From positions 372,001 through 436,000 of the forward strand of contig JAFCDQ010000001.1 in assembly GCA_017609645.1 (NCBI GenBank): DNA of 64,000 nt. Reading direction: 5' to 3'. The stretch is from Candidatus Woesearchaeota archaeon. Its GTDB lineage: Archaea; Nanobdellota; Nanobdellia; Woesearchaeales; ARS49. Both the position numbers and the translations under genes were made by a program. Positions 4,568-51,331 of the stretch are shown here, in pieces (position 1 is the stretch's first letter; each line of letters begins with the position of its first letter). The notes beneath the pieces are model-generated. The model did not search any database and was not told where the DNA came from. It saw only the letters and a list, made by a program, of their open reading frames with translations.

Positions 4568-5665
4568 TTACACAATCGCAAACACAGCACCAGCAACAAA
4601 CACAACAGTAATAATTACATCAACAAATAAAGGAATTTTCACAATTTTCTTAAATTGCTTGCAAGCAACCCTATGAGCAAAAATCATCAAAATAGCCATC
4701 ATAGAACCCGCAATCGCACCAGCAATATCAATTGTCTTAGCAAAACTTTCAAGGAAAAACATGCCAATCAAAGAAGGTACAAACGCCAATAAAAAAGACT
4801 TAGTTTTACTCAATAAAAAATCCCTAATAAACATATCATACAAAGCATAAGAAACAGCTAAAAAACTCGTTGCTAACGCTAACAAAGCAAAAATATTAAT
4901 CAAAATCCCCATAACAGGAGAAAAAACCTGCTGCAAACCAATAGTAGCAACTTCAGTAGTAGCACTTCCAGTTCTCGCGATAACAGTAGCAATAAACAAC
5001 AAATAAACAAAAATAGGAATAATAGAACCGATAATAATTATCTTCTTAAACTCCTTAAGTTTAGGTTTGAGCTCATACACTGCAGGAACACTAACAAAAC
5101 CTAAGTAAGCGAACAAAGCAATACCAAAAACCATCCCTACTCCATTAAAAGTAAAACCAGAAAAAGATTTTAACGTGACACTATTATTCATACCCAGAAT
5201 AACAATAATGCCGACAATAGCAAGCTTGATTGTTTCTAAAAATAATTCACTGCCGCTAATAACTTGAATACCTTTCACAACAATAAATGCTCCAACAATA
5301 TAAAAGCCAATTCTCCACATCAGCTCAGAACCACCCATAACTGACAAAATCCTTCCGCAACCAATAGCATAAGCAATCAAAGCACCATAACTCAACAAAA
5401 GCATAGCAAAAGTCATCAAAATCTTACCTTGCTTGCCAAGAAATCTTTCAACTAAACCAACTAATTGATGAGGCTTTTTCATGGCAACACTAACATCGCC
5501 AATCCTCAAATTAATAAAAAGCATAATCAAACCTAAGACAACAATTAATAAAATAGCAGACCAGAAACCAGACTGAGCAACAGCAAAAGGCAAAGCAAGA
5601 ACTCCTCCGCCAATAATACAGCCCGTCATCAAAGCAATACCCTGCCAGAATACTTTATTAGCCAT
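4568..5665 (-). CDS. Amino-acid permease, aromatic (HAAAP)-type
   Basis: 365 residues with about eleven membrane helices. The N-terminal Gly-Cys-Ile-Ile-Gly-Gly-Gly-Val-Leu-Ala-Leu-Pro segment (about 15-26) is the signature of the hydroxy/aromatic amino-acid permease and AAAP families, where the broken first helix binds substrate. The length is slightly below the usual 400. It probably imports an aromatic or branched amino acid by cation symport; the exact substrate cannot be read. It is a single gene whose start is set by ATG at 5665 with a weak GAGGTAA just upstream. Confidence 0.75.
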   Translation of the reverse strand: MANKVFWQGIALMTGCIIGGGVLALPFAVAQSGFWSAILLIVVLGLIMLFINLRIGDVSVAMKKPHQLVGLVERFLGKQGKILMTFAMLLLSYGALIAYAIGCGRILSVMGGSELMWRIGFYIVGAFIVVKGIQVISGSELFLETIKLAIVGIIVILGMNNSVTLKSFSGFTFNGVGMVFGIALFAYLGFVSVPAVYELKPKLKEFKKIIIIGSIIPIFVYLLFIATVIARTGSATTEVATIGLQQVFSPVMGILINIFALLALATSFLAVSYALYDMFIRDFLLSKTKSFLLAFVPSLIGMFFLESFAKTIDIAGAIAGSMMAILMIFAHRVACKQFKKIVKIPLFVDVIITVVFVAGAVFAIV

Positions 5666-5734
5666 AAATTACCTCTTTTTAAAGTATTACTGCAGTAGGT
5701 GTTTTTAAAGTTAACTAACAAAATTTAAAGAAAA

Positions 5735-5744
5735 CTTTTTAAAA
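5735..5744 (+). promoter_or_regulatory. TATA box for the tRNA-Arg/tRNA-Trp pair
   Basis: CTTTTTAAAA lies about 30 bases before the first base of tRNA-Arg at 5770. No separate TATA is seen in the 9-base gap before tRNA-Trp, so the two tRNAs are probably co-transcribed. Confidence 0.5.
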
Positions 5745-5870: not shown

Positions 5871-5972
5871 GGGGATATAGTATAACCTGGCTATTATTTC
5901 CGGCTCCAGACTGCTGGAGTGACTCCATCAAGGAGGGCCCGGACGATCTGAGTTCGAATCTCAGTGTCCCCA
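5871..5972 (+). tRNA. tRNA-Trp(CCA) with 28-nt intron
   Basis: Acceptor GGGGATA/TGTCCCC, discriminator A at 5972, anticodon stem TCCGG/CCGGA and T arm CTGAG-TTCGAAT-CTCAG. The loop CTCCAG at 5904-5909 gives anticodon CCA. An intron at 37/38 covers 5910-5937; it contains a CTCC...GGAG helix and can also pair with the anticodon. Trp is the tRNA most often interrupted in archaea. Here the intron is short and shows no C/D-box guide. Confidence 0.9.
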
Positions 5973-6728: not shown

Positions 6729-6738
6729 CCCTTGTACG

Positions 6739-6845
6739 CAGAGGTGGCCAAGCGGCTAAGGCGGTCGATTCTATGAAGAGTAATATCTTCTAGAAACCGA
6801 AGCTGCAACCCGGCTTATCGTGGGTTCGAGTCCCACCCTCTGCTT
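6739..6845 (+). tRNA. Type II tRNA (Ser-like), intron-bearing or degenerate, anticodon unresolved
   Basis: The acceptor stem GCAGAGG/CCTCTGC, D stem GCC/GGC, long variable arm (AAGCTG/CGGCTT) and T arm GTGGG-TTCGAGT-CCCAC are clear, and the D arm matches serine tRNAs. The anticodon arm does not close. By counting from the D stem, 27-31 is GTCGA and 34-36 would be CTA, but no complement TCGAC follows. Instead CGGT...TTCTA pairs with TAGAA-ACCG around a bulged CGA, and an inner hairpin GAAGA/TCTTC (6776-6796) looks like an intron. Discriminator T is odd for Ser. It may have more than one intron or be a pseudogene. Confidence 0.6.
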
Positions 6846-14375: not shown

Positions 14376-14480
14376 AGTAATTGTGAGCTAACAGAGCTTT
14401 AAAAAATTTTGTAAAAAATCTTATTTTAAAAAATTAAATTTAATTTTGCCTAACTATATTTTTAGCGCTTTAGTAGATAG

Positions 14481-14490
14481 ATTTATAAAA
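14481..14490 (+). promoter_or_regulatory. TATA box deciding the Nudix gene start
   Basis: ATTTATAAAA is centred about 27 bases before ATG 14512. An in-frame ATG at 14446 lies upstream of this element and would not be transcribed from it, so 14512 is preferred. Confidence 0.6.
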
Positions 14491-14511
14491 ATTAGCATTA
14501 TTCTCAAAAAT

Positions 14512-14892
14512 ATGATTGAGTTTACAGCAGGAATAATGATAAAAAATAAGAAAGTGCTTCTTTTATGTAGATCAGAGTATGAGGATGAAATTGGTAAGTG
14601 GAATCCGCCTAATGAAACTATTGAAGAAAACGAAGATCCTTCTGCTGCTGTAATAAGAGGAGTTAAAGAAGAAACTAATTTGGATTATAAAATTGATAAA
14701 TTATTGTTTGAACATATTTTTAATAATAAAAAAACAAATGTTTATTTAGGCACTGTTTCTGGGGAACTAAAAATAGATAAAAGAGAATCTTCTGCATATG
14801 GTTGGTTTTCATATGAAGATGCCAAAGAATTAGAGTATGCTTTTGGTTATGATAAGTTAATTGAAAGGTTACATGAATTGGAACTTTTTTAA
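14512..14892 (+). CDS. Nudix-family protein with altered Nudix box
   Basis: 126 residues from the promoter-supported ATG. Nudix enzymes hydrolyse nucleoside diphosphates linked to another group. The fold pattern is recognisable, but the box deviates: the usual Gly-Gly before the first Glu is Pro-Asn, and the Arg-Glu-x-x-Glu-Glu core reads Arg-Gly-Val-Lys-Glu-Glu-Thr-Asn, losing the first Glu. The last two metal-binding Glu are kept. Activity may be changed or lost. The first repeat locus begins 20 bases after its stop. Confidence 0.75.
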   Translation: MIEFTAGIMIKNKKVLLLCRSEYEDEIGKWNPPNETIEENEDPSAAVIRGVKEETNLDYKIDKLLFEHIFNNKKTNVYLGTVSGELKIDKRESSAYGWFSYEDAKELEYAFGYDKLIERLHELELF

Positions 14893-14912: not shown

Positions 14913-14985
14913 ATATAGTTGCCAAGGGCAAGTATTAATGTCGTTGTGTTTATTGAAAATAGGCGCAAGGCGCGTATTAATGTTG
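14913..14985 (+). repeat. Covarying hairpin repeat, locus 1 (two copies)
   Basis: Copy a, 14913-14943: ATATAG, arm TTGC, CAAGG, arm GCAA, GTATTAATG, TCG. Copy b, 14957-14985: AAATAG, arm GCG, CAAGG, arm CGC, GTATTAATG, TTG. Copies start 44 bases apart and each is preceded by TTTATTGAAAAT. The arms differ in sequence but are exactly complementary within each copy, giving a stem closed by C-G with AAG as the loop. The same unit occurs at 45.1 and 51.3 kb. Confidence 0.85.
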
Positions 14986-15218: not shown

Positions 15219-15317
15219 GCCTCTGTAGCTCAGTCGTAGAGCAGCTGCCTCGTAAAGCTTAAATACTATTAAGCTGATGAAAGCAGCAGGTCGGGAGTTC
15301 AAATCTCTCCAGAGGCT
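15219..15317 (+). tRNA. tRNA-Thr(CGT) with 27-nt intron
   Basis: Acceptor GCCTCTG/CAGAGGC, D stem GCTC/GAGC, anticodon stem GCTGC/GCAGC, T arm GGGAG-TTCAAAT-CTCTC and discriminator T at 15317 as in archaeal Thr tRNAs. The loop CTCGTA (15249-15254) gives anticodon CGT. The intron at 37/38 covers 15255-15281 and folds as AGCTTAA/TTAAGCT. A TATA-like ATTTAAAATA lies about 18 bases upstream. Confidence 0.92.
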
Positions 15318-44332: not shown

Positions 44333-44938
44333 GTGAAAGGAAAATTCATAGTATTTGAAGGAATAGACGGCTGTGGGAAAGGCACGCAATTAAAGATGGC
44401 AGCAGCGTTTCTTTTTGATATGAATAAAGATTTTGATATTTTTAAAACAAGAGAGCCAACAAGAGATTTTAAAGAAATAAGAGAAAAACTTGCCCAACAA
44501 ACCGAAGTCAAAGAAAATGCAGAATGGTATTTGAATGCGTTTATAGAAGATAGAAAAAATCATCTTGTTAAATATATCATTCCTGCATTGAATAATGGAA
44601 CATTAGTTTTGTGTGATAGATATAAACATTCAACACATACTTATCAACAAACACAAGGAATAGATGTAAATAGAATCATAGAACTGCATAATGGTTTATT
44701 AGTGCCTGATTTGACTTTTATTTTTGACTGTCCTGCATCAATTGCTTTTAAGAGAAGAGAAAACGCAGGAGCAACAGAAGTGTTTGACAAAGACTTGTTA
44801 TTTCAAGAAGAATTAAGACAAAATTATTTGAAATTAAAAGAAAAATTGTCTGATGAGAAAATAATTATCTTAGATGCAGCAAAAAAACCAGAAGAAATAT
44901 TTGAAGAAGTTAAAAAACATATTCTTAATATTTTATAA
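44333..44938 (+). CDS. tmk: Thymidylate kinase
   Basis: 201 residues, GTG start. P-loop Gly-Ile-Asp-Gly-Cys-Gly-Lys-Gly-Thr (about 10-18) and Cys-Asp-Arg-Tyr (about 88-91, the DRY-like motif) with Thr-Tyr-Gln-Gln-Thr-Gln-Gly define dTMP kinase. It makes dTDP from dTMP. The deaminase is divergent across a 147-base spacer, so the two dTTP-pathway genes share one control region. Confidence 0.92.
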   Translation: MKGKFIVFEGIDGCGKGTQLKMAAAFLFDMNKDFDIFKTREPTRDFKEIREKLAQQTEVKENAEWYLNAFIEDRKNHLVKYIIPALNNGTLVLCDRYKHSTHTYQQTQGIDVNRIIELHNGLLVPDLTFIFDCPASIAFKRRENAGATEVFDKDLLFQEELRQNYLKLKEKLSDEKIIILDAAKKPEEIFEEVKKHILNIL

Positions 44939-45109
44939 AAAAACTTAAATCACCTCTTTTTTAGTGATCACCCAGATTTTTTTTCCCACACTGAGATTTT
45001 TAGGTTATAGCAAGTATATAAACACTCTTAGCGCAAGAAATAGAGTAAGGAATATATATAGTAAAAAAAAGGTTTTGGAATAGATAATAATTACTTTTCT
45101 TAAGCTAGA
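44939..45109 (+). other. Intergenic region before the large repeat array
   Basis: This gene-free stretch continues through the repeat array to 45281. It holds a weak ATCAC/GTGAT hairpin with a T-rich loop (44949-44968), perhaps ending tmk transcription. It also has a TATA-like GTATATAAAC (45014-45023) with no gene after it on the plus strand before the array, so the array may be transcribed as a noncoding RNA. No open frame looks real. Confidence 0.4.
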
Positions 45110-45276
45110 CTATAGGCACCAAGGGTGCGTATTAATGCAGCTACTTTAAATAAAAAATATAGTGCGCAAGGCGCAGTATTTATGTCGCGGAGTTGATATT
45201 GAAAATAGGCACAAGGTGCGTATTAATGCCGCTACTTTAAATTAAAAATATAGGTGCAAGGCACGTATTGTTGTTG
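45110..45276 (+). repeat. Covarying hairpin repeat, locus 2 (four copies)
   Basis: Four tandem units starting at 45110, 45157, 45203 and 45248 (spacing 45-47). Arms are GCAC/GTGC, TGCG/CGCA, GCA/TGC and GTG/CAC, each perfectly paired around CAAGG. The left flank is (A/T)ATAG, the right GTATTAATG with changes only in copy 2 (GTATTTATG) and copy 4 (GTATTGTTG), then YNG-like triplets. Units 1 and 3 are followed by the same GCTACTTTAAAT linker, so the four copies probably arose by duplication of a two-unit block. The array lies between convergent genes. Confidence 0.88.
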
Positions 45277-45281
45277 TGTTA

Positions 45282-45749
45282 TTAGAATTTCGCAAGGACT
45301 TGAGAAGAATGACTTATTACTTCGCCTGTTTTTGTATCTACCTTAACATTAACTGTGTTGAAATTCTGTGCTAGGAAAGTAATATTAAATATTGGCTGAG
45401 TGATATTTTGAATAATGATGAAATGCTTAGTTATGATTTGATTAGAATATTTTTCTTTAAGAATTTCTTTAGCTTTTTCTAAAGCATCATTCATCGAAAT
45501 TTTAACATCATCAGAATTTAATTCAGAAATTTTAATATCTGACTTAAGAATATCTTCTTCTTTATTATGAACAATTTTTTCTCCACAAATAAAAGTAACC
45601 ATTTTTTTAATTTCAGAATTATAAAAACCAAACTGCCATTCACCATCTTCCATAAAAAAAGCATGAGCAAGAAAAAATTCATTATGTGATTCTTTCCAAG
45701 ATTTAAATTCCTGGCTGTCAGTCAGTTTTTTTAGTTTTTCATGGAACAT
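45282..45749 (-). CDS. Small protein with PepSY-like C-terminus
   Basis: 155 residues, no signal or membrane helix. The C-terminal part (about 83-155) has a helix-strand pattern 'Ala-Leu-Glu-Lys-Ala-Lys-Glu-Ile-Leu...Val-Asp-Thr-Lys-Thr-Gly-Glu-Val' as in PepSY domains. The N-terminal half, with Asp-Gly-Glu-Trp-Gln-Phe-Gly-Phe-Tyr, may be a second copy. Function unknown. Its stop is 6 bases from the repeat array. Confidence 0.55.
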   Translation of the reverse strand: MFHEKLKKLTDSQEFKSWKESHNEFFLAHAFFMEDGEWQFGFYNSEIKKMVTFICGEKIVHNKEEDILKSDIKISELNSDDVKISMNDALEKAKEILKEKYSNQIITKHFIIIQNITQPIFNITFLAQNFNTVNVKVDTKTGEVISHSSQVLAKF

Positions 45750-46594: not shown

Positions 46595-46708
46595 AGTCCC
46601 GTAGTCTAGCGGCCAAGGATGCAGGCCTTTGGCAGTAAAAGGGAGGGTCTTTAGGGGTCCTCAAGCTGAAGACAGCCTGAGACCCCGGTTCAAATCCGGG
46701 CGGGACTA
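46595..46708 (+). tRNA. tRNA-Gln(TTG) with 41-nt intron
   Basis: Acceptor AGTCCCG/CGGGACT with discriminator A, anticodon stem CAGGC/GCCTG and T arm CCCCG-GTTCAAAT-CCGGG. The loop CTTTGG (46627-46632) gives anticodon TTG. The intron at 37/38 covers 46633-46673. The next protein gene begins 12 bases after the tRNA and may be co-transcribed. Confidence 0.92.
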
Positions 46709-50703: not shown

Positions 50704-50763
50704 GTTCAAGAGACGAATCGGTGAAAGCTTGTTCGAACTGGCGATCAAAACTGATTCTTGAAC
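50704..50763 (+). promoter_or_regulatory. Structured 5' leader of the uS15 gene
   Basis: GTTCAAGA (50704-50711) pairs with TCTTGAAC (50756-50763), closing a 44-base internal region that contains the palindrome GTTCGAAC and an alternative GAATC/GATTC pairing. The stem ends one base before the GAGGT ribosome-binding site (50765-50769). This is the position expected for an autoregulatory element. In bacteria S15 represses its own message through leader structures; whether the archaeal one does is inference. Confidence 0.5.
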
Positions 50764-50777
50764 AGAGGTATACAACA

Positions 50778-51233
50778 ATGGCAAGAATGCATTCAAGAGC
50801 AAGAGGAAAAGCAGGCTCTCACAAACCATTAGAACCAAAAAAACCAACTTGGGTAAGATACGGCGCAAAAGAAGTAGAGATGCTTATTGCAAAACTAGCA
50901 AAAGAAGAAATGAGCACAAGTGAAATAGGAATCACATTAAGAGACAGTTATGGAATTCCTCAGGTTAAACAAATCACAGGCAAAAAAATACAAAAAATTC
51001 TTCAAGAGAAAAAATTATTAGCAGATTTGCCAGAAGATCTAAAGAACTTGATCACAAGAGCAATAATCATAAGAAAACATATGGAAAATAACAAACATGA
51101 TATGACTGCAAAAAGAGGCGTGCAGTTAACAGAGGCAAAAATTAACAGACTTGTAAAATATTACAAAGCAAACAAAAAATTACCTGTAGACTGGAAATAC
51201 AAACCAGAAACAGCAAGAATGTTGATTGGTTAA
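50778..51233 (+). CDS. rpsO: Ribosomal protein uS15
   Basis: 151 residues from ATG 50778 with Met-Ala-Arg-Met-His-Ser-Arg-Ala-Arg-Gly, the universal archaeal/eukaryotic start; the frame's extension upstream is the leader, not protein. Leu-Thr-Glu-Ala-Lys-Ile-Asn-Arg-Leu-Val-Lys-Tyr-Tyr near the end is the 16S rRNA-binding helix. It binds the central domain of 16S rRNA early in assembly. Confidence 0.97.
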   Translation: MARMHSRARGKAGSHKPLEPKKPTWVRYGAKEVEMLIAKLAKEEMSTSEIGITLRDSYGIPQVKQITGKKIQKILQEKKLLADLPEDLKNLITRAIIIRKHMENNKHDMTAKRGVQLTEAKINRLVKYYKANKKLPVDWKYKPETARMLIG

Positions 51234-51255: not shown

Positions 51256-51331
51256 AAATAGTTGCCAAGGGCAAGTATTAATCTCGAAGTGTTTGTTAAA
51301 ATATAGGCGTCAAGGACGCGTATTAATGTTG
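51256..51331 (+). repeat. Covarying hairpin repeat, locus 3 (two copies)
   Basis: Copy g, 51256-51286: AAATAG, arm TTGC, CAAGG, arm GCAA, GTATTAATC, TCG. Copy h, 51301-51331: ATATAG, arm GCGT, CAAGG, arm ACGC, GTATTAATG, TTG. They start 45 bases apart in the gap between convergent uS15 and an unknown gene. Copy g has the same arms as copy a at 14.9 kb, and both loci share the order of a TTGC copy followed by a GCG-type copy. Confidence 0.85.

Follow-up and report, generated by a model that had tools for sequence, protein, structure and literature searches.

The genome of Candidatus Woesearchaeota archaeon carries a family of short intergenic hairpins with at least 37 units, identified by a profile search together with a reading of the arrays, at what we group as 15 loci in this single genome. 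Its members vary in their arms by compensated changes, and they lie on one strand only. We give an even chance to the reading that this is a short, non-autonomous, REP-like hairpin element which is not itself a REP member and whose acting form is single-stranded DNA of a single replication strand. The uniformity of strand, the fact that this strand is the A-rich and better-folding one, the confinement of the loci to ~40% of the genome and the distinct 3′ flanks at array ends are new here.

Structure and covariation of the hairpin units

The window analyzed is a stretch of 64,000 nucleotides, C1:372001-436000, from a genome of 1.125 Mb in four contigs. The initial annotation had described eight copies of the element in it, four of them in tandem. 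All eight were found on the + strand and the four-unit array spans 45112-45269, with starts 45–47 bp apart (Table 1). The seven different arm sequences, complementary in all eight copies, were as it had listed them. ATAG and CAAGG are indeed shared by all eight, but the right flank it considered constant, GTATTAATG, is exact in only five, since GTATTTATG (45159), GTATTGTTG (45250) and GTATTAATC (51258) occur in its place; GTATT is present to the right of the hairpin in all eight. The motif CAAGG-N3..10-GTATT occurs 8 times in the window compared with 0.68 times expected from shuffles, and the full pattern 5 times compared with 0.00. Non-coding DNA makes up ~6% of the window. It also holds four tRNAs of 99–114 bases (5871-5972, 6738-6844, 15219-15317 and 46595-46708) that were detected with Rfam and missed by ARAGORN in bacterial mode; these probably bear introns.

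Table 1. Hairpin units in the window and their surroundings.
Feature	Position	Strand	Context
Hairpin unit, arms TTGC/GCAA	14915-14936	+	First of a pair, downstream of NUDIX gene (14446-14892 +)
Hairpin unit, arms GCG/CGC	14959-14978	+	Second of the pair after the NUDIX gene
Four-unit array with flanks	45096-45279	+	Between thymidylate kinase (44333-44938 +) and 155-aa ORF (45282-45749 −)
Hairpin unit, arms GCAC/GTGC	45112-45133	+	In four-unit array
Hairpin unit, arms TGCG/CGCA	45159-45180	+	In four-unit array
Hairpin unit, arms GCA/TGC	45205-45224	+	In four-unit array
Hairpin unit, arms GTG/CAC	45250-45269	+	Last unit of the array; divergent 3′ flank GTATTGTTG
Hairpin unit, arms TTGC/GCAA	51258-51279	+	Just downstream of ribosomal protein S15 gene (50721-51233 +)
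Hairpin unit, arms GCGT/ACGC	51303-51324	+	

Genome-wide, the strict pattern was matched by 27 copies and its reversed control by none. A covariance model built from 21 units with four-base arms gave 28 matches, on the same strands as the units, and none elsewhere. The unit can be written TTTANTKAAAATATAG - arm - C AAG G - arm′ - GTATTAATGTYG. Its helix, which the initial annotation had not followed beyond the arms, is made up of ATA/TAT, a constant G.G mismatch, three or four variable pairs and a C-G pair that closes the AAG loop. Nearly all 37 units have ATAG as their foot. Perfect arms of 10 types are present in 30 units, and the other seven deviate by G.T or A.C pairs. Four of these seven are paired by G.T on the + strand; the remaining three show G.T pairing only on the − strand, and two of the three are in one shared array segment. 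Several mismatched units look like the left arm of one type combined with the right arm of another. A coding sequence running through the array (ATG TCG ... TAG) was considered and rejected because stops at the variable codon break the frame in several units.

The covariation of the arms was examined on alignment A1 against shuffles that ignore the relatedness of the units: 98.2% of cells were paired compared with 78.2% in the shuffles, and there were 31 double changes compared with 8.6, a number reached in none of 500 shuffles. When the partner column was slid by one to three positions, the signal was lost. Descent alone would hardly yield ten different types of perfect arms. Judged by the 30 perfect units and this covariation, the further genomic copies do not lose arm pairing freely. 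The pairing noted in the window is thus kept genome-wide, but the claim that the hairpin must be under selection was too strong, because perfect stems can also be made and repaired by template switching in DNA, with no selection involved (PMC8794818).

Strand, chromosome position and array organization

All units are intergenic; ORFs that apparently overlap arrays were judged to be spurious starts or to lie at contig ends. Every unit is on the + strand of C1 or the − strand of C2 whatever the direction of the neighboring genes, which are divergent, convergent or codirectional. In DNA folding, the unit-bearing strand folds better in 34 of the 37 units. The AT skew at fourfold sites, for which a crude ORF caller was applied to sampled stretches, is of one sign throughout C1 (+), C2 (−) and C4 (+), approaching zero only in C1:450-550k and C2:50-100k. 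Since the skew keeps one sign per contig, every unit falls on the A-rich strand. No ori/ter switch was seen in this skew in the sampled stretches of C1, C2 and C4; a simple two-replichore orientation was rejected because the switch is absent inside every contig. Genes for Orc1/Cdc6 were located at C1:183k and C1:301k. The loci are confined to C1:213-580k and C2:227-316k and range over ~455 kb of ordinary genes. In another genome of the same order (G035, L276-L295), a complete single contig of 1.30 Mb, one strand is A-rich in 20 of 20 samples. Strand asymmetry over a whole chromosome with no ori/ter switch possibly reflects one-directional replication in these archaea; a chromosome-wide GC skew of one sign in a Microgenomates bacterium has been read as mostly one-directional replication (PMC7143001).

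The arms vary while the loop and feet are constant, which argues that what is recognized is a folded single strand, and the use of one strand regardless of the genes argues for DNA rather than RNA. We consider it rather unlikely that the array acts as RNA. On that view each locus would be transcribed, the hairpins of a small RNA or of 3′ untranslated regions would be where proteins bind or processing takes place, and the pairing would be maintained by selection on the RNA. The covariation is of the kind seen in RNA, four of the seven deviating units would stay G.U-paired if the + strand is the RNA, this strand folds better with RNA energies too, and many arrays are located just downstream of stop codons. 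Read-through RNA, however, would carry either strand, whereas one strand is used at all 15 loci with genes running either way. In addition, the three other deviating units would be G.U-paired only on the opposite strand, and Rfam holds no match. The uniformity of strand across gene orientations favors single-stranded DNA over RNA.

A unit may stand alone or belong to a head-to-tail array of 2–5, with a spacing of 43–47 bp within regular arrays. The array-final units have a different 3′ flank: GTATT is followed by A in 18 of the 21 units that are not last and in 3 of the 12 that are (Fisher p=0.0009, for a comparison chosen after the fact). The right ends of C1 and C2 (L087:14521-14718 and L090:11927-12065) lie at arrays that have a multi-unit segment in common, which fits copying, and the hairpin repeats probably broke the assembly there. 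Equal arms in neighboring units were seen in 0 of 21 cases; with P=0.16 (P=0.02 when just the first three letters are compared), we do not claim that neighbors avoid equal arms. Two NUDIX genes (window 14446-14892 and L088:7770-8264) each directly adjoin a hairpin array. At L086:9372-9763, a second inverted repeat, GAAAATCCTAA...TTAGGATTTTC, separates a solitary unit from an array of five.

Some features of the arrays could also arise with no selection on pairing, if template switching in the hairpin copies one arm to the other and the arrays spread by slippage and recombination, so that perfect arms are a mutational footprint. Besides the known capacity of switching to make and mend stems, the units that combine arms of two types would fit this explanation. 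So would the arrays at C1:440k and C2:228k, where the ~30-bp spacer is unchanged and both hairpins differ by compensated changes, and the near independence of arm type from flank similarity (Mantel r=0.10). Switching alone, however, would not keep the AAG triloop and the ATAG and GTATT flanks constant, and it does not account for the spread of the units over 15 intergenic loci, all on one strand, so we regard it as an unlikely sole explanation. Selection for pairing and template-switch repair may both act.

KOPS and Chi-type sequences are repeated, oriented chromosome sites. It is very unlikely that the hairpins are polar marks of this kind, read by a DNA translocase or a chromosome-folding protein: although their intergenic position and their uniform orientation along with the asymmetry in chromosome composition would suit such marks, the arrays are clustered in 40% of the genome with none elsewhere, marks of this type are usually short fixed words with no need for varying paired arms, and the element is absent from all sampled relatives.

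Relatives and known hairpin systems

The initial annotation knew of no named archaeal element like this one, and nothing catalogued matches it. There was no match above the gathering threshold among the Rfam families and none in viral contigs, phages or plasmids. The pattern did not exceed background in 57 relatives, and the element was absent from 241 other genomes of the order and from a sample of 370 other genomes in the phylum. Neither the element nor a matching empty site was present in any relative sampled. One weak model match in a genome of the same family (G020, E=0.07) does not resemble the element, and three pattern matches in bacterial genomes are single, unpaired and due to chance. 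A de novo hairpin-array detector recovered the family strongly in the source genome (G000; 25 sites, 9 arm types); applied to ~870 kb from seven relatives, it yielded no similar family. Another genome (G001; L176:8147, L182, L183, L185) has several copies of a conserved ~70-bp palindromic repeat, GTGCACAGAAAATCTTCGATTTTCTAGTGCTTGAGCAC, which is perhaps a miniature element.

The suggested likeness to REP elements holds for form. Like REP/REPIN with TnpA-REP (RAYT), the element is a short intergenic hairpin with a tetranucleotide at its 5′ foot and compensated arms, present in many copies and in clusters. In Pseudomonas fluorescens SBW25, REPs likewise show compensatory arm changes and form tandem arrays oriented by chromosome side (PMC3116915). 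Membership fails: the foot is ATAG instead of GT[AG]G, the units are head to tail on one strand and not in inverted pairs (BIME/REPIN), and REPs have a cognate Y1 transposase gene. The Y1 profile (PF01797), which gave matches in five genomes as a positive control, had none in the source genome, of which ~18 kb of the sampled stretches was masked and completeness is 90%. A single tyrosine recombinase was found in the genome, encoded on C4 (L091:6543-7757) far from the arrays; it has 404 aa and a zinc-finger-like CxxC pair at its C-terminus.

Y1 genes are present in 6 of 26 genomes of the archaeal family. None of the six is flanked by CAAGG hairpins, and the hairpins nearby are of other kinds. 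One family member (G003) has an IS200 (L241:5261-5800) that encodes a Y1 transposase (5287-5742 −, Pfam 1.1e-31). This IS200 carries two identical C-AGA-G hairpins, which are followed by GGGTATTAAA and have constant arms. Further copies of this hairpin are at other contig ends, including one tandem pair 50 bp apart. They were considered as a related array class and turned out to be IS200 ends with identical arms. The purine triloop closed by C-G and the following GGGTATTAAA resemble our element, whose arms in contrast vary, which forms 45-bp arrays and for which no tnpA was found. More generally, the subterminal hairpins of IS200/IS605 and of their miniature derivatives are also ~20 nt long and on one strand. 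They are substrates as single-stranded DNA, with a bias to the lagging-strand template, and the elements insert at a fixed tetra- or pentanucleotide with no duplication of the target. Two of the hairpins flank tnpA or its remnant, however, whereas a spacing of 43–47 bp leaves no room for a gene.

Integron attC sites are imperfect hairpins in same-strand arrays that are recognized by structure. By eye, nothing like their RYYYAAC and GTTRRRY boxes was seen in the element, there are no gene cassettes between the units, and the loci are scattered over the ~455 kb of ordinary genes. REP/REPIN and IS200 ends are the closest in working style, and the defining features of both fail here.

A proposed REP-like element acting as single-stranded DNA

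We infer single-stranded DNA as the acting form of the REP-like element, and also its mobility, the enzyme and the source of that enzyme. A protein would probably recognize the shape of the hairpin, that is, the C-G-closed AAG triloop, the stem with its G.G mismatch and the ATAG foot, but not the letters of the arms. We propose that the arms drift in compensated pairs because the shape is what is recognized. Insertion or retention of copies would be limited to the strand that is exposed as a single-stranded template, and we propose this as the reason for their single orientation.

The location of all copies on one strand is as expected of a mobile element copied through single-stranded DNA. 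The REP-like reading also gains from the IS200 in the same archaeal family and from the known action of Y1 enzymes on hairpins with a foot tetranucleotide and on the lagging-strand template (PMC6006769). Counted against it are the lack of a Y1_Tnp match in the genome within the coverage given above, the Y1 genes of the family with no flanking CAAGG hairpins, the lack of an empty site in the sampled relatives, none of which carries the element, and the restriction of the loci to ~40% of the genome, which free transposition does not predict. It is also conceivable, if doubtful, that the chromosome is replicated mostly one way and that the element spreads by a non-Y1 enzyme only via the strand that is permanently the lagging template. 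If this is true, replication would have a natural strand label in the hairpins.

Hairpin repeats of the REP type are a theme of bacteria. In a 2018 survey, the Y1 transposases of Archaea were of the IS200 subclass only, with none of the REP class (PMC6006769). A REP-like family in a small-genome archaeon, under a strict strand rule, with compensated arms but neither inverted pairs nor an enzyme found, would point to an unrecognized process of single-strand DNA. The orientation of the units could furthermore mark the replication strand independently in a group with poorly known origins.
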